Shown one piece after another: positions 16,948-49,823 of a stretch of 64,000 nucleotides of DNA. The notes under the pieces are model-generated. The model was not told the origin of the DNA. It saw nothing but the letters and a program-made list of their open reading frames with translations, and searched no databases. Position 1 is the stretch's first letter, and each line of letters opens with the position of its first letter. The stretch is from assembly GCA_026636295.1 (NCBI GenBank), contig CP089462.1, positions 434,001 to 498,000 of the forward strand. The letters are read 5' to 3'. The translations under genes were made by a program, and so were the position numbers. Source of the DNA: Medakamo hakoo (taxonomy: Eukaryota; Chlorophyta; Trebouxiophyceae; Coccomyxaceae).

Positions 16948-17503
16948 GACAGAGAGGCACGAGGGAGGAGACGAGGAAACACTGTGTGTGTGGATGGGAC
17001 GGGTGATGGATGAAAAGGGCACCCCCCCCCCCTCCCCACAGACAAGCAATCGCCTTTTTGCGCGGCGCCCACGCGCTCCGGCCCTCTCCTCCCCTCCCGC
17101 GCCCGGGTCGTGGAGTACACGCCCGTCCACGCCCAGGGCGCGTGCGTGCGAGGCGCCTCGCCGGCCTTGGTCTCGCAGGGTGCGTGGGGTTTTTTTCCTG
17201 CAAGCGCGCGGTTGGTGCGGAGCGACGCGAGCGGCGCGCGCGCGCGGCCGGTGGGTGGTCTCCAGTGACCTCGCCGCCCGCCTGGCTTTCGAGCGGTGAC
17301 CCACCCGCTCCCGCTCAGCCTGGGCGGTCCTTGAGGCCGTGTGCACGCTTCAAGCGGGTCAGACCGCTGTGCCTTCCGTGGCAGTCCGTCCAGGTCGCGC
17401 GTTGCTCCTCCCACCGGCGCGCGAGCGGCCTGCGGCCTCCGTCACGTTCTCTCCCCCCCTGTCCCCGCCCTCACGTCAACGCACACCACAGGCTCGCGCG
17501 GCC
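16903..17503. other. Intergenic region, methionine gamma-lyase to Mei2-like
   Basis: Contains a (GA)n run at 16912-16945, a C-run near 17027 and otherwise unique GC-rich DNA. No convincing coding, tRNA or other RNA signal. An ACCACAG before 17492 could be a 5'-UTR acceptor for the Mei2-like gene. Confidence 0.5.
16912..16945. repeat. (GA)n microsatellite
   Basis: Uninterrupted GA dinucleotide run just after the methionine gamma-lyase stop codon. Confidence 0.9.
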
Positions 17504-20451
17504 ATGGCAGACGGCTGGGCGCAGGAGCCATTTGGCCAGCTGGGGTCAGGCTGGCCGCAGGTGAGAGGCTGGGCATGACAGAGGCAGGGCGGGGGCGCGG
17601 GCAGAGAGTCCGACGGCCATGCCTTCGCCGCCCGAATAAAAAAAAACCTCGGCCCGCCTCCCTCCACCCACCACCCCACACCCACTCACCGCCGCCCTCC
17701 CACGATCCACCCACCAAGCAGGACGGCTCCCACCCGGACCTGACCGCCGCCCTGGCCAACCTGGAAGCGACGACCACCGCCGCCGCCGCGGCGGACGCAG
17801 CCCCGTCCTCCTCCTCGTCCGAGGCCTTGCCCTCCCTCGCAGCCTTCCACCGGCGCGCGGCGGCCCACCCGCCGCACCTGCCGCCCGTCCCCTCGGACGC
17901 ATCCCTGGCCTCGGCCCTAGGCGATGGCGCCGGCTCGACGGCATCCCTGTCCGCGTACACCTCCCGCCTCGTCCCGCGCGCGCCCGGCGGGTCGACCATT
18001 TTTGGCAGCGCCGCGGACGACCTGGCCGGGTTGGCGGGGACGTCTCCGTCCGCGGGTGCGGCCACCAGCCTGGCGAGCGCTCTGGCCGCTGATTTTGAGG
18101 GCCGGCTCGGGTTGGGAGGCGGGGGCAGTGCCGCCGCGCTGCCGCCGTCGTCGTCGGCGGGCGACCTGTCCGCGGCCGCGCTGCTCCTGGAGGGCGGCTC
18201 CACCACCCACCTCCCGCCCGCCCAGCCGTCCACGGGCTCCCTCGCCGCCGCTCTGAACGACGCCTTCTCGGAGCGGGAGCGGGAGTTTCAGGCCCGGGAA
18301 GCCGCAGCGGCGGCGGCGAGTGCCGCTCACCCGTCGGCGTTGGCGGCCGCGGCGACCGCCACGACGGCCGCCGCCGCGTCCGCCGCAGCTGCGCGGTCGA
18401 CCCAGCGCGGCGATTCCGTCGCCTCCCTGCTCGGCGGGGCGCCGGCGGCCTCCCGCCCGGGCACGGCGGACTGCCCCCCTTTGGCCAGCACGTCCGCGGC
18501 CGCGCGCGCCGCCGCGGCCGCGGCCCTGCCACCGCTGCCGCCGTCAGGCCCGCCGCCCTCGCGCACGCTGCTCGTCCGCGGGCTCGACCCAGCCCTCCCG
18601 TCGGCCGCCGTCGCGGCTGCGTTCGAGCCGTACGGCGATTTGCGCGCCTTGCACGTGCCTCCACCCGGCACTCCCGGCGCCGGCATCGTCGTCGTCGCCT
18701 ACCACGACCTCCGGGCGGCGCTGCTGGCCCGGCACTCACTGCACGGCGCGGCCGGGCCGTCACCGCCGCCGCCGCCGGCAGTGGACGGGGCCGACGAACC
18801 GCGTGTTCCCACCTCGCCACCCGCCCCGCTGTCGGTGTCCTTTGCACCCGCGCCCGACACGGGCGGCGACGGCGAGGCCGCGGCCGCCGCCGCCGCCGCG
18901 GAAGGCATCCTCCCGCTCTTCCAGGCCGACCCGTCGCTCCCGCCCGCCGCCCTGGCCGGGCGCATGGCCGCCTACGGCGACGTCCGCTGCGTCCGTCCAC
19001 ACCCGTCGGGCGCGCCGGGTGCGGTGTTGGTCGAGTTTTTCGACGCGCGCGCGGCCGCGGCGGCCGCGGCCGGCTTGGCGGCAGGCGGGGATGGCGGGGG
19101 GCCCACCGCCCTGCCACCCCCGCCCTCCCCGCTCCGCCCGCTGGGCGGCATGCGCCACGCCGCGTCGGTGGGTGCCCTGCCCATCCTGGGCGGCGGCGGT
19201 GGTTTGGGCCGGCGCGGGCTCGCTGCGTCCTCGTCGGACGGCGGAGACCTGTTTTCGGCCGGCGGCCGGTCGCTGGACGCGGCTGGTGGCGGCGGCGGCG
19301 CGGGCCCCTTTGCCGCCGCGCTCCCACCGCCGCCGCCGCCGCCGCCGCCATCCTTGTCCGCCGGCAACCTGTCGGACGTGTACCGGGCGGCGGCGGCGGC
19401 GGCGGCGGCGGCCGCCACCGCGTCCGGGCCGCCGCCGCCGTCCGGCTGGGAGGCGTCGGCTGCCGCTGCTGCGGCCGCGGCGGCCGCCGCGGCGGCTGCC
19501 CACCACCACCACCACCACCACGCCCACAACCCGGCCGCCGCCGCGGCTGTGCTCCAGCTGCTGGCGGCCCAGCAGCAGGCGGTGGCGGCGCACCAGCAGC
19601 ACGCGGCTTTGGCTGCGGCGGCCGCGGCGGCGATGGCGGCTGTGGCGCCGCCCCCCCCGCCGCCGCCGCTGACCCGCCCTGCCGCCCGGTCCGCCTCGGC
19701 CGGCGCCCTCCACGCCCGGCCCGCGACCGCCCGCGAGCCGGCGACGCCGCCCTCCCTGGCTGGCACGACGCCGCCCCCACCGTCCGCCGCCCCTCCACCG
19801 CCGGCCCAACACCAGCAGTCGGGGGGTGGCGGTGGCGGCCGCCTCTCCCGCCGCGCCGCCGACCCGGCCGCGGAAGCGGAGCGCCGCGCCGCCCAAGCCC
19901 GCATGTTCGCCCTGGACGTGTCCCGCGCCCTCTCCGGCGCCGACCCGCGGACGACGCTCATGGTCAAGCACATCCCCAACAAGTACACGCAGAAGATGCT
20001 GCTGGCCGCCATCGACGCGGTGCCGGGCGCGCGCGGGACGTACGACTTTTTCTACCTGCCCATCGACTTCAAGAACCGGTGCGGCGTCGGGTACGCGTTC
20101 ATCAACCTCACCCGGCCCGCGCACATCGCCCGCCTGGTGGACCGCTTCCACGGCAAGCGGTGGGACCGCTTCAACAGCGAGAAGGTGTGCGAGATCGCGT
20201 ACGCGCGCATCCAGGGCAAGGCGGCCCTCGTCCAGCACTTTCAGCACTCGTCCCTGCTGCACGAGGACAAGCGGTGCCGGCCGCTGCTGTTCAAGACGGG
20301 CGAGGACGGGCGGGCGGGCGAGCCGGAGCCGTTCCCGTCGGTCGGCGGCGAAGGTGCGTCGCCCGCCGCGTCCCGCCCGGCCCCACGCACCGGGTCGGCC
20401 GCGTCCTGGCGCACGGACGAGGATGAGGACGACAAGGCCGGCGACGAGTGA
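17504..20451 (+). CDS. Mei2-like RNA-binding protein with three RRMs
   Basis: Exons 17504-17560 and 17722-20451, 928 residues. The C-terminal RRM (about 764-880) is diagnostic for Mei2: TTLMVKHIPNKYTQKMLLA, YDFFYLPIDFKNRCGVGYAF, LVDRFHGKRWDRFNSEKVCE and YARIQGKAALVQHFQHS. Two weaker RRMs precede it: RTLLVRGLDPALPSAAVAAAFEPYGDLR (about 298-375) and GILPLFQADPSL...MAAYGDVRCV (about 414-472). The rest is low complexity with poly-Ala, a run of eight His and poly-Pro. Mei2 proteins bind RNA to control meiosis in fission yeast and growth and meiosis in plants (AML/TE1). Exon 1 encodes MADGWAQEPFGQLGSGWPQ, a short separate module. Expression timing cannot be read from sequence. Confidence 0.9.
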
Positions 20452-34695: not shown

Positions 34696-37600
34696 ATGCT
34701 CGGCGCGCTCGCGGCCGCGGCCGCACGCCGGGCGGTGACTGCGCGAGGGCGGGGAGCCGTGGTGATTGGCGCACACGTGGGGCGGCTGCCTGAGCGTCGC
34801 CTGGTACGTGTGGACTGTGGGCCCAGGCTGTCGCCCGCCCCCGCCCCGCACCCCTATCTTTTCGCGCTGCTTTCCCGCTCGAAACAAAAAAAAAACACTT
34901 CGGCAAGATGCGTCTCACAGCTCTCCGCCCACACCACCACAACCCAAACAGCCTGCCCCGCCGTCAGCCGCCCTCATACACACGCGGCGTCCTCCGGCCG
35001 TCGTCGCCAGCGCGGTGCCGGACAATGCGGCCGTGGACGAGGGCGAAGAGACGGCGGCGGGTGTGGCGTCGTCACCCCCCGCCTCCCAACCTGTGCTCCG
35101 CACGGGCGCGGCCGCGGTGCCCATCACCACCGCCCGCCAGCCGCCGCCCACCACCACGCCGCTGTCCGCCCTCCTGGCCTCGGCGGCCGACGGCCGGTCG
35201 TCCTGGGTCGCCCTGGCGGACGCGCGCGCCAACCTGGACGCGGCCGCCGACCGCTTCCTGGAGTGCGTCGCGTGGGAGCGGTCGCACGGGTGCGCCAACG
35301 CGCCCGCCCGGTCCGGGACGTTTGCCGACTACCTGGCCGCCGCCCTGCCCCGGTTGCGGGCGGCCATGGCCGAGGCGGTCGACGCGGGCGCGCCCGCCGC
35401 CGCCATCGCGGCGCTGACGGGGTCCAAGCTGGAAGCCATGGCCGCGACGTACGCCGCGTCCGACCCGGCCCGCCGCGCCCACCTCCTCGGCGTGGCCGCC
35501 CAGGGCGTGGCGGCCGCCTGCGACGCCGCCGCCGACGCGGCGGCGGGCCAGTGGGTCGGCATCGTGTACGACCTGGAGACGACGGGCACCCGGCCGGGGG
35601 CCGATGCGATCACGGAGCTGGCGGCCGCGTGCCTGGAGTCTGGGTCGACCTTTTCCTCACTCGTCTCCCTGGCCGGGACGGGCGTCGAGGCCGTCCCGCC
35701 CGCCGTGGAAGCCCTGACCGGCATCAGCACGGCCATGCTGGCCGACGCGCCGCCGTTCGCCGACGTCGCGGCCGCGTTCGAGGCGTGGGTGGCCGACCGC
35801 GCGGCCGGGGTCGGGCGCGGCGGGCGCGTCCCCCTGCTGATCGCGCACAATGGCCGTCGCTTCGATTCGCGGGCCCTGGCGGCGGCGTACGCCCGGGCCG
35901 GTCGGCCGCCGCCTGCAGGCTGGGCCGCCCTGGACACGTTTGACCTGGCCAAACGCGTGTTTGAGGGGCGGCGGGTGTCGGATGACTGCGGGGATGGCGG
36001 CGGCGGTGGTGGCGGCGGCCTGCCTGGTGGCGGCGGGTGGGTCGGCGCCGGCGGCGGTGGTCCGCCGACCACCACCCGGCCGTCCTCGCTCGCCCAGCCG
36101 TCCCTGCGGGCCTGGTACGGCCTGCCGCCGCCGCCGTCCACGCACCGGGCGGGGCCGGACGTGGCGGTCCTGGTCGACTTGCTGCCCCGGCTGCTGGCCG
36201 AGGCGGGGCTGCGGTCGGCCGGCCACGCGGTGCTGGCGGGCGACGCGGCCGTCCACGACCTGTTCCCGGGCGCGGCCGCCGCCGCCGCCGCGCCGTCGCC
36301 CCCGTCGTCGCCTGCATCGGGAGCGTCGACAGCCACGGCCGTGCCCGGCGCGCCCCCGGCGTCGCCGCCGCCCACGCCCCCTGCCGCCGCCGCGTCGTCG
36401 CCCCCAGACAGCGGCGCGCTCGCCCCCGCCCTGGCGGGGCTGCTGGATCAGCTGGCTGCGTCGGGCGCTGCCCTGGACGCGTCGTTCGAGCTGGTGGGCC
36501 CGGAACCGGAGGCGGCCCTGCTCCCAGGCCTCGTGTCGGCGGGCCTGGCCGCTGACGCGCGGGCGGCGGCCCGGGCCGGGTCGCCCGCGCCGGCCGCGGC
36601 GGCCCTGCCCCTGTCGTCCGTCCCCGACCTCCGCCCGGCCGTGCTGGACCGCCTGCGCCGGGCGGGCTTCGACACGGTCGGCGACCTGCTCGCCGCCCCG
36701 CCCCGCGCGTACGAGACCGCCGGCGGCCGCCTGGCCCCCGGCGCGGCGCGCGTGCGGTTGCTGGGCAGCGTCGCCGACGCGGCGTATTTCCCCGCGCGCA
36801 CCGCGTCGGCCGCGGGCCGCGCCGTCTTCACTCTCGTCCTCGACGACGACGGCTCGTGCGGCGGCGCCGGCTCCGCCGCCCACCTGCCGCGCCCGCGGGC
36901 CGTGGCCACGCTCTTCTTCCGCGGGCGGGGGCAGTTCGCGGGGCGCCGCCTGGTCAGCGAGCTGGGCCGGGGGGCGAGGGTGCTGCTGGTCGGCGACGTC
37001 GCGTCGCCCGCGCCGCCGCCGCCGGGCGGCGCGTGGGAAATGGCGCCCGGCGCGGAGATCCTGGCCGCCGACTCGCCGCGCGCCGCGCGTGCGGCGGGTG
37101 CCGCCGTCCTGGCCAAGTACAGCGCGCGCGCCCCGCTCAAAGCCGACGCCTTCCCGGACCTGGTCGCGGCCGCGCTGCGCGCGCTGCCGGCCGACGCGCC
37201 CGGCGCGCTCCCCGCGCCCGTCGCGGCCGCGCTGGGTCTGGCGCCCTGGCGCCGGGGCGCGGCCGCGCTGCACGAGCCGTCGTCCGAGGCGCACGCTGAA
37301 GCCGGGCGCCGCCGCCTGGCCGTGGAGGAGCTGGTGGTCATGTACACCGCCGTCGAGCTGGCCCGGGCGCGGGCGCTGGTGGGTGGTGGTGGTGGTGGTG
37401 GCGGGAGTGGGGGCGGGGGTGGCGCGGCCGTGGCCGCGGCCGCGCCCGCCGCCGCGCCTCCATCCCCGCCACCCACCACCTGCGTCCCCAGCCTGGACGC
37501 AGTCGACGAGGCCATCGCGTCCCTGCCCTTCACCCTGACGGCCGGCCAGGCGGCGGCGCTGGGCGAGGTCTTGGACGACTTGGGCGCCGTGCGGGCGGGC

Positions 37601-39184
37601 GACGGGGCCCGCCCACCCCCCGCCGGGGCGGCGCCGCCGCCCCCACGCCCGCCCATGGCCCGCCTGCTGCAAGGCGACGTCGGGTCGGGCAAGACCGTCG
37701 TCGCGCTGCTGGCGCTGTTGGCCGTCGCGGGCGGGGGCGCCCAGGGCGCGCTCATGGCGCCGACCGAAGTCCTGGCGGCCCAGCTGCACGCCAACCTGCA
37801 AAAATTGGTCGCGGGCCTGCCAGGGCCTGGCGAGGGCGGCGGCGGCGGCGAGGGTGGTGGTGGTGGTGGAGACGGCGGCGGCGCCGAGTCCGCCTCCCCG
37901 ACGACTCCAGCCCGCCGCCGCCGCCCGACCATTGCCCTGCTCACCGGCTCCACGCGCGCCGCCGAACGCCGCCGCATCCTGGCCGCCCTGGCGGACGGGT
38001 CCGTCGACATCGCGGTCGGCACGCACTCGCTCGTGAGCGAGGGCGTGTCCTTTGCCAACCTGGCCCTGGCCGTCGTGGACGAGCAGCACCGGTTTGGCGT
38101 GGCGCAACGCGCCCGCCTCGCCACCAAGGCCGCCACCATGCCGCACGTCCTGGCCATGACGGCCACGCCCATCCCGCGCACGCTGGCCCTGGCCCTGTCG
38201 AATGAAACCGATTGTTCCACCATCCGCGAGCGCCCGCCCGGGCGCCAGCCCGTCGTCACGCACGTCGTGTCCGACGACGGCGATGACGGGCCCGAACGGG
38301 CCCGCGTCGCGGCCGCCCTGAGGGCCGAGTTGGCCGCGGGCGGGCGCGTGTTCGTCGTGTGCCCGCGGATTGAGGCGGACGGCGACGGGTCGGAAGAGGA
38401 GGGTGCCGGGAGCGGCGGTGGTGGTGGGGATGGCAGCGCCGGCCGCGCCTCTCCCCCCTCCCCGACCTCGTCACTGCGCGCCGCGGAGGACGAACACCGC
38501 CGCCTGGTGCAGTCCGGCGCCCTGGGCCCCGGCGTCTCGGCTGGCCTGCTGCACGGCAAGATGAAGCCCGCGGAAAAGGCGGCCGCGCTCGAAGCCTTCC
38601 GGGCGGGGGAGACGTCGGTTCTCATCGCGACTTCCGTCATCGAAGTCGGCGTCGACGTCCCGGAAGCGACGGCCATCGTGGTGGAGGGCGCCGACCGGTT
38701 CGGCCTGGCCCAGCTGCACCAGCTGCGCGGGCGGGTGGGCCGGGGGGACAAGCCCGCCACCTGCTGGCTGTTTGCGACGAGCGACGGCGGGGCGGCCCGC
38801 CTGCGCCCGCTCGCCGACTCGGACGACGGCTTCGTCATCGCCCAGGCCGACCTGGCGGCGCGCGGGGCGGGCGACATGGTCGGCCGCCGCCAGTCCGGCC
38901 TGGAAGCCTTCGGCGGCCTGCGCGCCGCCCGCATAGAGCGCGACCTCAACCTGGTGGAGCGCGCGCGGCGGGCGGGGGCCGCGCTCGCGGGCGCGCTGGC
39001 GGGCGCGGACCGGGCGTCCTGGCCGCCCGGCCTGGCGGCGGCGGTGGCGGCGTTTGAAGAGGATGAAGCGGCTGCCGCGGGCGCCCTGGAGCTGGGCGGG
39101 GCGGGCGCGCCGGCTGCTGCGGGGCCAGGCGCGGAGGAGGGCGGCGGCGGTCGGGCGCGCGGCGTGAGTGCAAAAAAGACATGA
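34696..39184 (+). CDS. DEDDh exonuclease-RecG helicase fusion, organelle-targeted
   Basis: Exons 34696-34803 and 34952-39184, 1446 residues. The C-terminal half is RecG: OB/wedge region near 590-740, GDVGSGKTVVALL (Lys950), APTEVLAAQLHANL, AVVDEQHRFGVAQR (Asp1079), AMTATPIPRTLALAL, TSVIEVGVDVPEAT and LHQLRGRVGRGD, the motor that reverses stalled forks and Holliday junctions. In front lies a full DnaQ-like exonuclease: VYDLETTG (Asp243, Glu245), HNGRRFD (Asp341) and HRAGPD (His434, Asp439). Exon 1 (MLGALAAAAARRAVTARGRG...) is a plastid or mitochondrial presequence. A TATA-like CATAAA at 34639 favours the ATG at 34696 over an in-frame one at 34645. Several Gly/Ala/Pro loops pad it. Both halves are in one exon, so the fusion is not a splicing guess. 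Confidence 0.92.
34859..34878 (+). promoter_or_regulatory. Two E2F-like motifs in RecG-fusion intron 1
   Basis: TTTTCGCGC at 34859-34867 and TTTCCCGC at 34871-34878. Both fit the E2F/DP consensus TTTSSCGC and lie close to the likely start of transcription of a DNA-repair gene. Control by E2F is inferred. Confidence 0.4.
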
Positions 39185-39230
39185 GTGGACAAGTAGACAC
39201 GCACCACACACACACAATCAATCACAAAAG

Positions 39231-42200
39231 TCACGCCGTAAAGATCTCGGCCCCCTCCCCGTAATCCTTGCTCAGCCAGGGGTGGGCCAGCGCGGCCGCA
39301 GCGGTCGGGCGGGCCGCGGGGTCGACGGCCAGCAGGGCGTCCAGGAAGGCCAGGCACTCGGCGTCGGCCCCCGGGACGCGCGCGGCCAGCGTCGTCTTCT
39401 TCGGCCGCAGCCGAACCATGGCCCCGCTGCGCCGGTCGCGCTCGACGATGGACCCGGACGGCGTGTAGTACCGGTGCGCGTACCGGCCGCGCGCCCGCAT
39501 GCCGGGCGGGACGGGGCCGCGCAGCCCTTCCAGGCGGGCCAACAGGCCCGCGGCCGACGTGGACGGCAGGAGCACGCGCCCGGACACCAGCTCCGCGACG
39601 ACGCAGCCCAGGCTCCACACGTCGATGCCGGGGCCGTACCCGCAGCCCAGGACGACTTCGGGGGCGCGGTACGCCCGGGACTGGATGTACCCGGCGGGCG
39701 GGTCGGTGGCCAGGCAGGACGAGCCCAGGTCGATGAGCTTGACCTCGCACCGCGAGTACGACTTGAGCAGGATGTTCTCCGGCTTGACGTCGCAGTGCAG
39801 GATGCCGAGGCCGTGCAGGAAGGCCAGCGCGCCCAGCACCTGGCGCGCGACGGCCTGCACCCGGGCGAGCGTGAAGTAGGGCGGGCGGGACGCCGCCGCC
39901 GCCCGGCCGCCCGCGCGCGCGACGGCGTGCAGGTCCGCGCGCAGCGCCTCGGTCACGAGGAACAAGTGCTCCCGGTGGTAGAACGCGTCGTGGAGGCGGA
40001 GCACGCCCGCGCTGTCGCCCGGGTCGGCCGCGTTGGCCATGCGCAGCAGGCGGACCTCGTCCAGGGATTGGTCGACGTAGTCCTTGACGGGCTTGACGAC
40101 CTTGAGGCAGACGAGCGAGCGGGTGGCCGTGTCGAGCGCTTGGAGCGCGGTCGAAAACGCGGCGGCGCCGAGGTAGTCGGTGACGACGTAGCGCCCCGCG
40201 ACCACGTCGCCGATGGCGTACGCCAGCTCCCGCCCCGACGACGCCTCCGCGCCCGTCCGGCCTCGGCGGGAGACGATGCGCAGCGGCCACTCGTCGAAGG
40301 CCGCGGCGTAGGCGGCCGGGTCGAACGCGGGCGGCGGGCGGGCGAGCGGGGCCGGCGGCGCTCCGCCCGGCCCGCCCGGCGAGCCCAGCAGGTGGTGGTG
40401 CGGCGGCGCACTCCCGCCGCTCCCACCGCTGCCTGCCCCCGCCGCTCCTGGCGGCAACGGCAACGCCGTCAGCATGGGCGGCCCAGGAGACCCGCGTGGA
40501 GAGGGTAGTTGCAAGGCCGCCCGCGCAGCGGCGGCGGCGACGGCCGCAGGCGCGACGGCGGTCGCCGCGCCCGGCCGCCCGCCGCCACCCGGGCGCCCAG
40601 CCGCGCTCGCAGCGCTGTTGCGCGGCGTGGGCGCGCCCGGGAAGGACCCGCCAGATCTTTCCACGCCAGCGAAAAAGGGCATGGGCGGGCCCGTTCCTAA
40701 ATCGCCGCTGGCCCGGCGGACGGCCGGGCCCGGGCCGGCACCCAAGGCCGCGCGCGCGGCGTCTGCCACGTCGCCCGCGGCCGCGGCGGCGCCGGGTGAG
40801 GGCGGCCGGGGCGGGCCGGCAAACCGCCCAGCATCTAGGGACCACCGCCCGGCCGCGCTTCCAGCGCTCGCGTCCGTGGACCCGCGGCGCCGGCCGTACC
40901 AGAGCAGCGGGTGGCCGCCGGCCAGGGCGCCCGGCGGCGGCGGCGGCGGCGGCGGCGGGTGAGCACCGCCCGCGCCGGGCGGGATGAGGCCCGGCGGCGG
41001 CGGCGGCCCTGCTCCGCCCTCTTCATCCGACCCGTACGCGGACGACCAGGCGGACGTGGTGGACTGGTTGCGGCGGAAGGAGGGCCAAGAGCCGAAGACT
41101 TGGCCGGACGGCGCAACGACGGGCTCAGACGGCGGCGTGACGGGGAATGAAAAACCGGGCCCGCCCGCCGTCGGCGGTGGGGCGGGGGGTGGAGGGGGCG
41201 TGGCCGCGGGCGGAGGAGCGTCGACGGGACCGTCGTCCGGCCGGGCTGCCGCCAGCGCCGCAAAGGGCGACGCGCCGGGCGGGCGGGCGTGCGGCGCGCC
41301 TGCACCCGCACCCGTCGGCCTGGCGGGCGAGCCAGCGGCCGCTTTGGCGGGCGACGTGGACGCGCCGCGGGACGGGCCGGACGGCGGCGAGCCGACGGCT
41401 AGCCCAGCAGACGACGCGGAAGAAGGCAAGACCGGATCCGCCAGGACCACCAGCCTGGCGGGCGTGCCGCAGCCGGACGTCGCGCCGGAACCAGGCCCGG
41501 GCGGCGACGCGGGCGGGTGGTGGGCCGCACCGTGCAGGCGTGGCGCCGAGCCCTGGCGGCGAAACGGTGGCGGCGCCGTCGCCGCGGCTGTCAGGTCGCC
41601 CGCGCTGGCCCGCGCAGCGTGGTACAGCTCCAGCGCGATGTCGGCTTCCGCCGCGTCCGCGGCCGCCAAAGCCAGGGACGAGCCGCGCGAGCCGCCGCCG
41701 CCGCGCGCAGAGCCGAGCGCCCCGCCGCCCGCCGACGGCGTCCGCCTCAGCCCGGCCCACTCGTCGTCCGTGGACGCCAGCTCCTCACGCACGTAGCCCG
41801 GGTCGTCTTCGTCCGAGTACTCGTCCACCACGCCGCCGTCGGCGCCGACGGCCGGGCTGGCGGGCGGGGAGCGCTGCTGCGAGGGCGGCGGCGTCGGCCG
41901 GCCGGGCGTCGTGGCGGTCGACGTCGCTTCGCCCGACCCACCGCCGCGCACGTCGGGCGAGGCCTGGCTGTCGCCCCCGCCCGCCGCAGTGCTGTCACCG
42001 GAGGGCGCGGGGCCCAGGCCGGCCAGCAGCGTCGGTGAAGCTGGCCGCGGCGGCGGCGGGGGCGCGGGGGGCGGGGGAAACGCGCCGCCTGGCCGGGCCG
42101 GGCTGGACGCCAGGGGCGGCCGCGGCAGCGGCGGGCCTCCCATGCCTCCACCACTCACGCGAGCCAGGCTGCCCAGGCTGCCGGACGCGGCGGGGGAGAG

Positions 42201-42458
42201 GTCCAGGGCGGAACCCGACCGCGAGGGCGGGCCACCGCCTCCAGCGCCGCCGCCGCCGCCTTCACTCAACCTGTCGGCGGACGGCGTGCGGGCGAGCGGG
42301 GGGCGGCCCATCCCCGAGGATGAAGCCGCGCCGATGGCCAGGCCGGCGAGTTCCTGGGCCAGCGCATCTGCCGCAGTAGGGAGGCCCTGCGATTTCAGGT
42401 AGGCGACGAGGCCGGCCAGGTCGGCCGGTGGTGGAGGGCGTGGGTCGGATGAAGACAT
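39231..42458 (-). CDS. Plant-type DYRK protein kinase (DYRKP) with N-terminal LisH motif
   Basis: One exon, 1075 residues. Residues 13-40 form a LisH-like helix pair (LAGLVAYLKSQGLPTAADALAQ). About 700 residues of Ser/Pro/Gly/Ala-rich disorder follow. The kinase domain starts near 755 with YVVTDYLGAAAFSTALQAL and VCLKVVKP, then HCDVKPENIL (Asp890), LIDLGSSC (Asp910, with DLG for the usual DFG), and the activation loop AGYIQSRAYRAPEVVLG, whose Tyr matches the autophosphorylated DYRK site. IDVWSLGCVVAELVSG and RPTAAAALAHPWLS close it. A DYRKP-type kinase limits starch and growth responses in Chlamydomonas; a similar signalling role is inferred. An in-frame ATG 22 codons upstream exists, but the A-rich context just before 42458 favours this start. 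Confidence 0.88.
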   Translation of the reverse strand: MSSSDPRPPPPADLAGLVAYLKSQGLPTAADALAQELAGLAIGAASSSGMGRPPLARTPSADRLSEGGGGGAGGGGPPSRSGSALDLSPAASGSLGSLARVSGGGMGGPPLPRPPLASSPARPGGAFPPPPAPPPPPRPASPTLLAGLGPAPSGDSTAAGGGDSQASPDVRGGGSGEATSTATTPGRPTPPPSQQRSPPASPAVGADGGVVDEYSDEDDPGYVREELASTDDEWAGLRRTPSAGGGALGSARGGGGSRGSSLALAAADAAEADIALELYHAARASAGDLTAAATAPPPFRRQGSAPRLHGAAHHPPASPPGPGSGATSGCGTPARLVVLADPVLPSSASSAGLAVGSPPSGPSRGASTSPAKAAAGSPARPTGAGAGAPHARPPGASPFAALAAARPDDGPVDAPPPAATPPPPPAPPPTAGGPGFSFPVTPPSEPVVAPSGQVFGSWPSFRRNQSTTSAWSSAYGSDEEGGAGPPPPPGLIPPGAGGAHPPPPPPPPPGALAGGHPLLWYGRRRGSTDASAGSAAGRWSLDAGRFAGPPRPPSPGAAAAAGDVADAARAALGAGPGPAVRRASGDLGTGPPMPFFAGVERSGGSFPGAPTPRNSAASAAGRPGGGGRPGAATAVAPAAVAAAAARAALQLPSPRGSPGPPMLTALPLPPGAAGAGSGGSGGSAPPHHHLLGSPGGPGGAPPAPLARPPPAFDPAAYAAAFDEWPLRIVSRRGRTGAEASSGRELAYAIGDVVAGRYVVTDYLGAAAFSTALQALDTATRSLVCLKVVKPVKDYVDQSLDEVRLLRMANAADPGDSAGVLRLHDAFYHREHLFLVTEALRADLHAVARAGGRAAAASRPPYFTLARVQAVARQVLGALAFLHGLGILHCDVKPENILLKSYSRCEVKLIDLGSSCLATDPPAGYIQSRAYRAPEVVLGCGYGPGIDVWSLGCVVAELVSGRVLLPSTSAAGLLARLEGLRGPVPPGMRARGRYAHRYYTPSGSIVERDRRSGAMVRLRPKKTTLAARVPGADAECLAFLDALLAVDPAARPTAAAALAHPWLSKDYGEGAEIFTA

Positions 42459-42785
42459 TTTTTTCGCGATAAAGCTTTTTTTTTGTCTGCTCCTTTCCGC
42501 TGCACGCCCGCGCCCACGTCCCACTGGAGGCGCGCAGGCCTCAAGTGGACGGCAGGCTTGGGAGCGGCGGGAGAGGGACGCGGGCGCGACCGTGCACGCG
42601 CGCGCGTGCGGTGTGTGTTGAAGGGACGAGACAAGAAATTTTTTGTTTGAGCTGACCGCAGCCCAATGTGTTGCACTCTGCTCTTTCTAGCGCCGGCGGC
42701 TCTGGGGCGCCACGGTCAATTCAAGGCCTGCGTCCCACGCCCAGCCGTAGTTCACAGCCAGCGTCATCCACGGCAAAAACACAAA
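42459..42785. other. Shared promoter region of DYRKP and LRR genes
   Basis: 327 bp between divergent start codons. Contains T-runs around 42460 and 42477 with a CGCGATAAAGC core between them, and ACGCGCGCGCG near 42597. An ATG at 42666, in frame with the LRR gene, would extend that protein by 40 residues. Confidence 0.5.
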
Positions 42786-46530: not shown

Positions 46531-49500
46531 ATGCGCCCTTTCTCAGCTGCGACGGCAGCGGCGCAGCCACCTGCCACCGCCCGGCCCGCACTCGGCACGC
46601 CCACCTTACCGCCCCGCCACGCCCGGCGGAGCGTGGGTTGGACTCCTGCGGCTACTCCGAGTGATGGAGCGCAATCAGGCGAGCCCTCCAACCCGCCCCC
46701 CTCGCCGCGCATGGGTCGCGGCCAGCCGTCGCCCACACTCCGCGCCGGCCTCCGCGCCGCCTTGCTCACGGCGGGCGGGCTGATTGCCCTGGCAGCACCT
46801 CGCCCAGCGCTGGCTGCTGCGAGTCAGGTGGCTGAGGCCAATGCGCGTCGCTTCCGGTGAGTGTTGAGCGGCGGCGGAAGTGGGGGACGAAGAAAAAACT
46901 CGCGCGCCGCCTCCCCCCTCCCCTCACCCTCTCCCCCCAACCACGCGCACCACCACTCCCCCCACACAGCCCCAACGTCGCCTTCGACCTGGCTGACGCG
47001 TCCACCATCACCCCGTCCTCCTCCCCGCCGGCCGTCATCCCCACAGACGACCGGTCCGGCGCGGCCGGCATCCGGGCCGACAGGGATGCCGCGTCCCGGG
47101 CGCGCGGGTCCGGCAAAGCGCGGCGCGCGTTCTCCAACGACCTCGCCCGGCGCAAGGTCGCGACCCAGCCCGCCGGCCTGGACGCCCAGCGCCCGGCGCC
47201 CGAGACGCCGGGCGGCGGCCCCACCTCCCACGTCTCCGACCCGGCCCTCATGCCGGACGCCTGGGGCGGCGCGGCCGAAGACGAGTGGGGCACGCCGCCG
47301 CCCGGGTGGCCGGGCAACAAGCGCGCGCCCGTGACCGCGGCGTCGCCGTACGCCGCCCGCCGCCTGACCTACACCCAGCTCTGGCAGCTGGTGGCGGAGG
47401 GCAAGGTCGCGTCGCTGTCCATCGACGCCGATGGCGGTGGATGCACCGTGACGCTGGCTGCCTCTGCTCCCGGCGGGGCGCGGACGGAGAGGGTGGGCCT
47501 GCCGTACGACCCGGCGTTGTTGGACCACCTCGCCGCGCACGGCGTCGTCGTCGAGACCGCGCCGCCCCCGCCCTGGCTGCTCCAAGCCGTGGGCTTTGCG
47601 ACCCAGGCCCTCTTCCCCATGGCCTTTTCCGTCGGGCTGGCCTGGTTGGTCCTGCAATCCCTCAAGATTGGTGGGGCGGGCGCCGCCGTGGGCGGCGACT
47701 CCAACGCCGCGGACATCTTTGCCGGGCCGGAGCTGCGGCGGCTGGACAAGGGCGAGGCCGGCGTCGATTTCAGCGACGTCGCGGGCATCGACGCCGTCAA
47801 GGCCGAGGTCTTTGAGATCGTGGAATTCCTGCGCAACCCGGCCCGGTTCACGCGCGTCGGCGCCCGGTCGCCCGCGGGCATCCTGCTGGCTGGCGTCCCA
47901 GGCACGGGCAAGACGCTCCTCGCGCGCGCGGTCGCGGGCGAGGCGGGCGTCCCGTTCTTCTCCACGGCCGGCTCCGACTTCATGGAAGCCTTCGTCGGCA
48001 TGGGCGCGTCCCGGGTGCGGGACGTCTTCCAGGCCGCACGCGCGGCCGCGCCGTGCGTCCTGTTCATCGACGAGTTTGACGGCATCGGCGCCGCCCGGAC
48101 GACGGCGGCGGGCGTCAGTGAAGGTGAGTTTGGATGGAGAGGGGTGTTTTTTTTTTTTCACTCTTTCTCCTTCGTTTTGTTTGGCGAGGACGACGAAACT
48201 ATCCGCGCTTCTGAGCCTCTGCCCGCTCGCCGGGCAGGGGGCCTGAAGATGAGATAGACACAAATGGTTGAATTTTCTTCACCTGAGCCGCAGAATGAGA
48301 ACAAAAAAGAATGAGAGACCCTCCCGAGCGAGGGTGAATGGATGGATGGATGGACTTTTTTGCGGGGTCACCCCACCAACTCACGCCTCTCCATTCCTCC
48401 CCCCTCCCCCCCTTCAGAATCCGTGCAAACCATCAACCAGCTGCTGACGGAGATGGACGGCTTCGACGACAACACGGGCGTGATCGTGCTGGCGGCCACC
48501 AACCGGCCCGCCGCCCTGGACGCCGCGCTGACCCGGCCCGGCCGGTTTGACCGCATGATTGTCATGCCCCTGCCCTCCGTCCAGGGCCGGGTCGACATCC
48601 TGAAGGTGCACGCCCGGGGCAAGCGCATGGAGCCGGGCCTGGACTACGACAAGGTCGCCCGCGCGACGGCCGGGTTCACGGGCGCCCAGCTGATGGGCGT
48701 GATGAACCGGGCGGCGATCATGGCCGTGCGGCGGGGCGCGCCCGCCATCGCGGAGGAAGACGTCTTCGCGGGCCTGGAGGACGCGTTCTACGGCAACCTG
48801 CTGGTCGAGGGCGAGGAGGAGGCGGAGGGCCGGACCCTGCCCAAGCGCGAGGTCCGGGCGATGTGCGTGTACCAGGCCGCCAAGGCGCTGGTCGGCGGCC
48901 TGACGCCCGGGTTTGACGAGCTGGCCAAGATTGTCGCGTGCCCCGGGCGGACCTCCACGGCCGCGTTCGTCCACTGGATCCCGCGCGAAGAACACCTGGA
49001 GACGGGCATCATGACGCGGTCGTACTTGGAGGCCACGCTGACGGTGGCCCTGGCGGGCCGGGCGGCGGAGCGGCTGGTTTACGGTGAGGCAGGGTTGACG
49101 ACGCTGTCGGGCGGCGACGTCGCGCACGCGGGCATCGTCGCGCGCGAGCTCGTGCTGCGCTCCGGCTTCGGCCGCACGCTGGGTCCGGCCTGCACGACGG
49201 CCGCGACGCGCGTGTACATCGAGGGCGTGGGCGCGGGCGTGACGGCGGCCATCGAGTCGACGGTCGGGCTGGGCAGCACGACGGCCGCGTCCGCGGCGGG
49301 CGAGATCGGTTCCCTCATGGCCGCCGCCGAAGCCAAGGCGCACTTCGTCCTGGCGTCCAACTACCGTGCGCTGACCGCCCTGGCCGACACGCTCATGACG
49401 TGTGGCGGCGTGATGCGCGGGCCCGACGCGCTCGCCCTGCTGGCCGCGCACGGCGCCAAGCCGCTGGCGACCGCGCGCGTGGACGGGTTCGGGTGGGATG

Positions 49501-49823
49501 GGAAAGGCGTGCTGGCGTGGCCCGGCCGGGATGAGGGCCGGGCGCCCGACGGTGCTGACGAAGAGTGGACGGGCGGCCTGCCTGCCACGCGGCCGCCGGG
49601 CACGGAAGTCGCGCCCGTCGGCGCCGAGACGGTCCTGGTCGGCGGCGGCCCGTTTTCGCTGCCAGTCCACCTGCCCAGGGGCGTGGGCCCGGCCGGGTTT
49701 GGGGCGGGCGGGGCTGGCGTGGACCCGCTGCGGGACCTGCCGGAAGCCGTGGCGGCGGCAGAAGCCAAGGCTGGCATTGGCGGGGGTGGCGGCGGGGCGA
49801 GCGGGAGCGGCGGGGCGGAGTGA
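46531..49823 (+). CDS. FtsH-like inactive protease (FtsHi), plastid AAA ATPase
   Basis: Exons 46531-46856, 46970-48123 and 48418-49823; 961 residues with a transit peptide and a hydrophobic segment ([20 protein letters not shown]) in exon 1, and a second one ([15 protein letters not shown]) before the ATPase. The AAA domain is intact: [27 protein letters not shown] (Lys423), CVLFIDEFD (Asp476, Glu477) and [21 protein letters not shown]. In FtsH proteases the zinc site reads HEAGH; here residues 645-649 read YQAAK, so all three key residues are lost. Plant FtsHi proteins of this kind form an envelope motor with Ycf2 that pulls preproteins into the plastid; that role is inferred. Intron 2 holds a GGAT repeat. 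Confidence 0.92.
48337..48352. repeat. (ATGG)n microsatellite in FtsHi intron 2
   Basis: Four tandem ATGG units 65 bp before the acceptor. Confidence 0.75.

Follow-up and report, generated by a model that had tools for sequence, protein, structure and literature searches.

Results

One open frame joins an exonuclease to RecG

The DNA analysed here, called the window, is a stretch of 64,000 nucleotides of contig CP089462.1 of the trebouxiophyte green alga Medakamo hakoo (assembly GCA_026636295.1, positions 434,001 to 498,000). The gene under study lies on its plus strand, and sequence comparison confirmed that it encodes a single chain in which the helicase RecG is preceded by a complete DEDDh 3'-5' exonuclease domain. 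The open frame from 34766 to 39184 runs for 1472 codons without a stop and is unbroken across the linker between the two parts, so that one continuous exon carries both, as a sequence-only reading of the window had claimed. With the ATG at 34696, a donor GTACGT at 34804 and an acceptor CAG ending at 34951, as obtained from a splice-model scan, the product has 1446 residues. Residues are numbered here on the 1410-residue product of exon 2 (Table 1); the numbers of the sequence-only reading are these plus 36, and its five catalytic residues (243, 245, 341, 434 and 439) fall exactly on D207, E209, D305, H398 and D403. Exon 1 and its start codon are a prediction only, and the predicted starts of the homologues P0001 and P0003 differ from that of the window gene. 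The predicted leader could be an organelle-targeting peptide, the first 60 residues of the predicted product having 9 Arg, 1 Asp and 1 Glu.

At this GC content the length of a frame is weak evidence, because an antisense frame of 1465 amino acids (36448-40845) overlaps the RecG gene; open-frame length was therefore dropped as proof of the fusion. Third-position GC along the frame is 0.88-0.96 in nine of ten blocks and 0.78 in the last, a measure taken without a control and not used as proof.

The homologues are more informative. At least 15 database proteins join the exonuclease and the RecG helicase in one chain, among them proteins of Elliptochloris bilobata, of three Trebouxia and of Chlamydomonas sp. 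UWO 241. RNase_T and helicase domains occur together in 12 of the 120 matches listed of 1746; P0022 is fused by motif, and a separate search gave two further fused proteins, P0241 and P0242. P0001 is about 74% identical to the query over 91% of its length and matches both halves (158/223 aligned in the exonuclease, 389/469 in the helicase part). The exonuclease of P0012 is partial, its gene model beginning after motif I. Since homologues carry both parts in one chain, the fusion is real and not a chance frame. One could still suppose that two adjoining genes were merged in the gene model, stops being rare in sequence of 73% GC and long spurious frames such as the antisense one occurring here. 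We consider this very improbable: single chains of distant green algae show the same domain order, the linker holds no stop, and the fusion has been published independently (PMC12292046).

The exonuclease part keeps its catalytic residues and fold

Pfam recognises RNase_T at residues 204-341 (E 4.2e-12), then DEAD (1.1e-15), Helicase_C (6.9e-19) and RecG_dom3_C (3.3e-7), in that order. The five catalytic residues are invariant in 15/15 fused-lineage rows of alignment A4, window included (P0003, whose model ends before the helicase, is counted; P0011 and P0012 are omitted), and the same five are kept in 20/20 standalone exonuclease rows. The earlier statement that the DEDDh set is complete is right. 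In an AlphaFold2 model the motifs do assemble into a DEDDh fold, which in fold searches matches TREX1, TREX2 and DnaQ, the first Foldseek match being 8zef, a bacterial exonuclease-DinG. By sequence profile, the exonuclease of PolC and TREX2 rank first in the PDB. This ranking speaks against RNA as what the exonuclease trims, such as that in an R-loop unwound by RecG, and the conservation in all 15 rows speaks against its serving mainly as a nucleic-acid clamp; we regard either role as distinctly unlikely. No named DPD1 appears among the 120 matches listed of 325 for the exonuclease, and the label DPD1-like used below is that of PMC12292046, not one taken from a tree with DPD1.

The helicase part is best matched by RecG profiles

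The best NCBIfam match of the protein is a RecG model, with 514 bits versus 292 for Mfd, and together with the Pfam domains DEAD, Helicase_C and RecG_dom3_C this upholds the RecG identity proposed from the letters of the window. At E up to 1, Pfam gives the window protein no match to the DinG helicase domain PF13307. Pfam matched no wedge (PF17191) in the window protein nor, at E up to 0.001, in seven relatives, including the moss protein P0035. In the predicted structure of a fused homologue, P0004, residues 414-1108 align with RecG 1gm5; the 604 aligned residues correspond to positions 113-755 of 1gm5, a span unlikely to omit the wedge, but the root-mean-square deviation (rmsd) is 9.2. The model shows a RecG-like fold for the helicase part of this homologue, and its linker is of low confidence, residues 302-345 and 363-379 having a predicted local distance difference test score (pLDDT) under 50.

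Table 1. Features of the fused gene (window positions; residues on the exon 2 product)
Feature	Position	Strand	Basis
Predicted exon 1, Arg/Ala-rich leader	34696..34803	+	splice-model scan; start codon is a prediction
Predicted intron GTACGT...CAG	34804..34951	+	picked by splice-site sequence among many in-frame GT-AG pairs
Exon 2, 1410 codons plus stop, every recognised domain	34952..39184	+	frame and Pfam
N-terminal domain, residues ~95-190, common to cyanobacterial and land-plant RecG	35234..35521	+	profile search; window weak, E 0.0013, residues 95-144 only
DEDDh exonuclease domain, residues 198-430	35543..36241	+	Pfam RNase_T, alignments, model and fold search
Motif I, D207 and E209	35570..35578	+	alignment
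Motif II, D305	35864..35866	+	alignment
Motif III, H398 and D403	36143..36160	+	alignment
Pro/Ala-rich linker, exonuclease to RecG	36242..36628	+	sequence; matching part of P0004 model low-confidence
RecG wedge region, approximate	36629..37171	+	inferred from alignment to P0004
RecG helicase motor	37673..38743	+	Pfam, NCBIfam, motifs
Walker A	37673-37696	+	within RecG motor
DEQH	38078-38089	+	within RecG motor
TATPIPRT	38159-38182	+	within RecG motor
QLRGRVGR	38720-38743	+	within RecG motor
RecG domain 3, C-terminal part, residues 1291-1341	38822..38974	+	Pfam PF19833

The exonuclease lies within the RecG chain

We then looked at the region upstream of the exonuclease. A profile of the N-terminal domain made from cyanobacterial and plant RecGs (P0018 and P0035 belong to its training set) recognised 11 of the 15 fused proteins, all with E values of 0.0013 or lower, against 0.13 for the best-scoring of 620 shuffles. 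The domain stands upstream of the exonuclease in each of these 11, of which the window protein is the weakest. P0004, P0006, P0022 and P0023 are missed by this profile, and among 13 other proteins P0016 alone also matches it. A profile made from cyanobacteria only does not find the window protein; among the 15 fused rows it picks up P0008, P0015 and P0021, each with a better score than all 620 shuffles. As the shared N-terminal domain lies upstream, the exonuclease sits between this domain of RecG and the wedge. In the fused RecG of Chlamydomonas sp. UWO 241 (P0023), a stretch between exonuclease and wedge resembles an AP2 DNA-binding domain; Pfam finds no AP2 domain there (E <= 0.001).

In a tree of 44 RecG cores, 18 algal rows (the window and 17 others, including the fragments P0002, P0005 and P0007) stand on one side of a branch with a value of 82 only in the Shimodaira-Hasegawa-like approximate likelihood ratio test (SH-aLRT), which lends modest support to a grouping of the algal cores; a cyanobacterial origin of the core does not emerge from these 44 rows. 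The exonuclease tree was built from 14 fused rows, 5 DinG rows and those 36 of 120 standalone rows that passed a filter on motif and length (84 did not). When it was left unconstrained, the fused label changed three times, of which the starred branches force at least two, with P0121 inside the fused group and P0015 and P0021 outside it. A tree in which the 14 fused rows were held together outscored the free tree (approximately unbiased (AU) test, p 0.797), and a single origin of the fused exonuclease is allowed by these sequences. RNase_T is absent from 3/3 land-plant RecGs among the matches listed; the fusion may be a gain in chlorophytes or, alternatively, have been lost in land plants.

Relation to known systems

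The sequence-only reading had held that no exonuclease-RecG fusion was described. This was wrong: fusions of a DPD1-like exonuclease with RecG are described for many green algae in section 8 of PMC12292046, with Micromonas, Ostreococcus, Volvox and Cymbomonas as examples, and PMC12079397 repeats the observation, calling the function still to be explored. DPD1 and RecG are both mentioned in PMC6981420 as well. M. hakoo is a further member of this published, uncharacterised architecture. It resembles the published fusions in having a DEDDh exonuclease and RecG in one green-algal protein and in the lack, in the genome search reported below, of a MutS1-exonuclease fusion; it differs in not being among the examples that PMC12292046 gives there, and the likeness is drawn from the published descriptions. 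The RECG of the moss Physcomitrella (PMC4358946) is likewise a nucleus-encoded RecG and shares the N-terminal domain common to land-plant RecGs, whereas the land-plant RecGs among our matches lack the exonuclease. Angiosperm DPD1 and the plant DPD1-MutS1 proteins differ, again as described in PMC12292046, in that the exonuclease stands alone or is joined to MutS1, not to RecG. The bacterial exonuclease-DinG proteins (8zef; P0268-P0272) also place a DEDDh exonuclease ahead of a helicase, but that helicase is DinG, and their five rows form a group of their own in the exonuclease tree.

The value of these results is mainly corrective, as the architecture was already known, and the M. hakoo gene makes a useful test case. 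The new points are that the gene is the one RecG of a very small algal genome, that the exonuclease is placed within the RecG chain, and that a connection with Escherichia coli genetics, set out below, gives the fusion a reason.

A single RecG locus in a small genome

A RecG profile run over the whole genome found one locus at 478.9 bits, the next match reaching 26.4. RNase_T occurs at six places. Besides the RecG fusion and a CCA-adding enzyme, these are one frame that also matches UCH_1 and three in which RNase_T stands alone. From their sequence features, these four frames are probably PAN2, REXO4, REXO1/SDN and oligoribonuclease. A direct search with the exonuclease of the fusion gave no other place in the genome below E 0.01. 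MutS domain I was found at three places, none of them beside RNase_T and none above the mutS1 cut-off; these are presumably MSH6-, MSH3- and plant MSH1-like. There are nine MutS_V matches. The assembly comprises 15.6 Mb in 16 contigs, and the published description gives 16 chromosomes, 72.7% GC, 7629 predicted nuclear genes and 89.5% complete BUSCOs (PMC9871001). Absences from the genome are provisional, because genes were searched exon by exon and because of this BUSCO completeness. With one RecG and no second such exonuclease below E 0.01, a single gene could be interrogated in M. hakoo.

A probable unwind-and-trim enzyme of organelles

In plants and algae, organelle DNA undergoes heavy recombination and depends on a few nucleus-encoded proteins to stay in order. 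In moss, RECG localises to the nucleoids of plastids and of mitochondria, and in either organelle recombination between short repeats is suppressed by it (PMC4358946); by homology to this protein, an organellar role of the M. hakoo protein is plausible. In E. coli, 3' flaps arising where forks meet are either degraded by 3' exonucleases or turned into 5' flaps by RecG, and cells without ExoI, ExoVII and SbcCD need RecG to live (PMC6393302). On balance, we favour the view that this is the nuclear gene for the M. hakoo RecG with a DPD1-like exonuclease, acting as an organellar unwind-and-trim enzyme. The fused protein would go to the plastid, the mitochondrion or both, where its RecG part would remodel branched DNA, namely 3' flaps at meeting forks, D-loops at short repeats and stalled forks. 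A 3' end laid bare by RecG would be trimmed by the tethered exonuclease and in this way kept from priming unwanted replication or recombination; one molecule would then combine two activities that can stand in for each other in E. coli.

Several observations weigh against this view. The window protein scores 479.2 bits on NCBIfam recG, below the equivalog cut-off of 659.4, and must therefore be called a divergent RecG; the four other fused proteins tested (4/4) also stay below it (488.9 to 614.1). This cut-off, passed by the land-plant proteins P0018 and P0035 and by the cyanobacterial P0037, is a threshold for naming and does not define the structure. For the P0004 model, VIA puts two-domain matches to Mfd above RecG, the alignment to RecG being that with the rmsd of 9.2, and the relative placing of exonuclease and helicase is not fixed, given a predicted template modelling score (pTM) of 0.56. 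Because TREX, ERI and DnaQ folds tie, no substrate is predicted for the exonuclease. Finally, RecG and the 3' exonucleases differ in part in the intermediates they act on in E. coli (PMC6393302).

The same protein might instead be mainly an enzyme of organelle-DNA degradation, taking in algae the place that DPD1 has in angiosperms. RecG would open the DNA or travel along it so that the exonuclease could destroy the genomes of plastids or mitochondria, for instance when the copies from one parent are eliminated or during nutrient stress. The exonuclease is termed DPD1-like and DPD1 degrades organelle DNA (PMC12292046, PMC12079397), the nucleases of cytoplasmic inheritance in Chlamydomonas are called unidentified in PMC12079397, and a search of the genome gave no further exonuclease of its kind below E 0.01. 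Nevertheless, we hold this reading to be rather unlikely: the relative that has been characterised, moss RECG, protects organelle DNA (PMC4358946), an exonuclease requires DNA ends, a point made for DPD1 in PMC12292046, and DPD1-like is a published label, not an orthology established by a tree. A far more speculative proposal, to which we give very little credence, is that the merged DPD1-type exonuclease-RecG does both, guarding plastid and mitochondrial genomes by unwinding and trimming and, when switched, destroying them, and that it is the long-sought nuclease behind the selective loss of one parent's organelle DNA in Chlamydomonas-type zygotes.

Other features of the window and genome

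On the minus strand a protein-kinase gene (39231-42524, Pkinase E 2.7e-41) converges with the RecG gene, the two stop codons lying within about 50 bases of each other (39184-39231). A Mei2-like frame with RRM_2 (E 1e-42) lies at 17341-20451 (+). Two adjoining frames at 46857-49820 (+) match an AAA ATPase and Peptidase_M41 and are probably a single FtsH-like gene interrupted by an intron. Other frames match SecA, PsbP, importin, protein kinase and BAH-PHD domains, in keeping with a nuclear chromosome from a photosynthetic eukaryote; tRNA and Rfam scans across the window gave no matches.

Elsewhere in the genome, the CCA-adding enzyme mentioned above (L020:3628-6294, minus strand, contig C5) carries a DEDDh RNase_T domain at 480-692, besides a PolyA_pol head (187-307), an RNA-binding part (361-395) and tRNA_NucTran2_2 (729-865). 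A limited literature search gave nothing evidently concerned with such a fusion, which perhaps acts on the 3' ends of tRNA.
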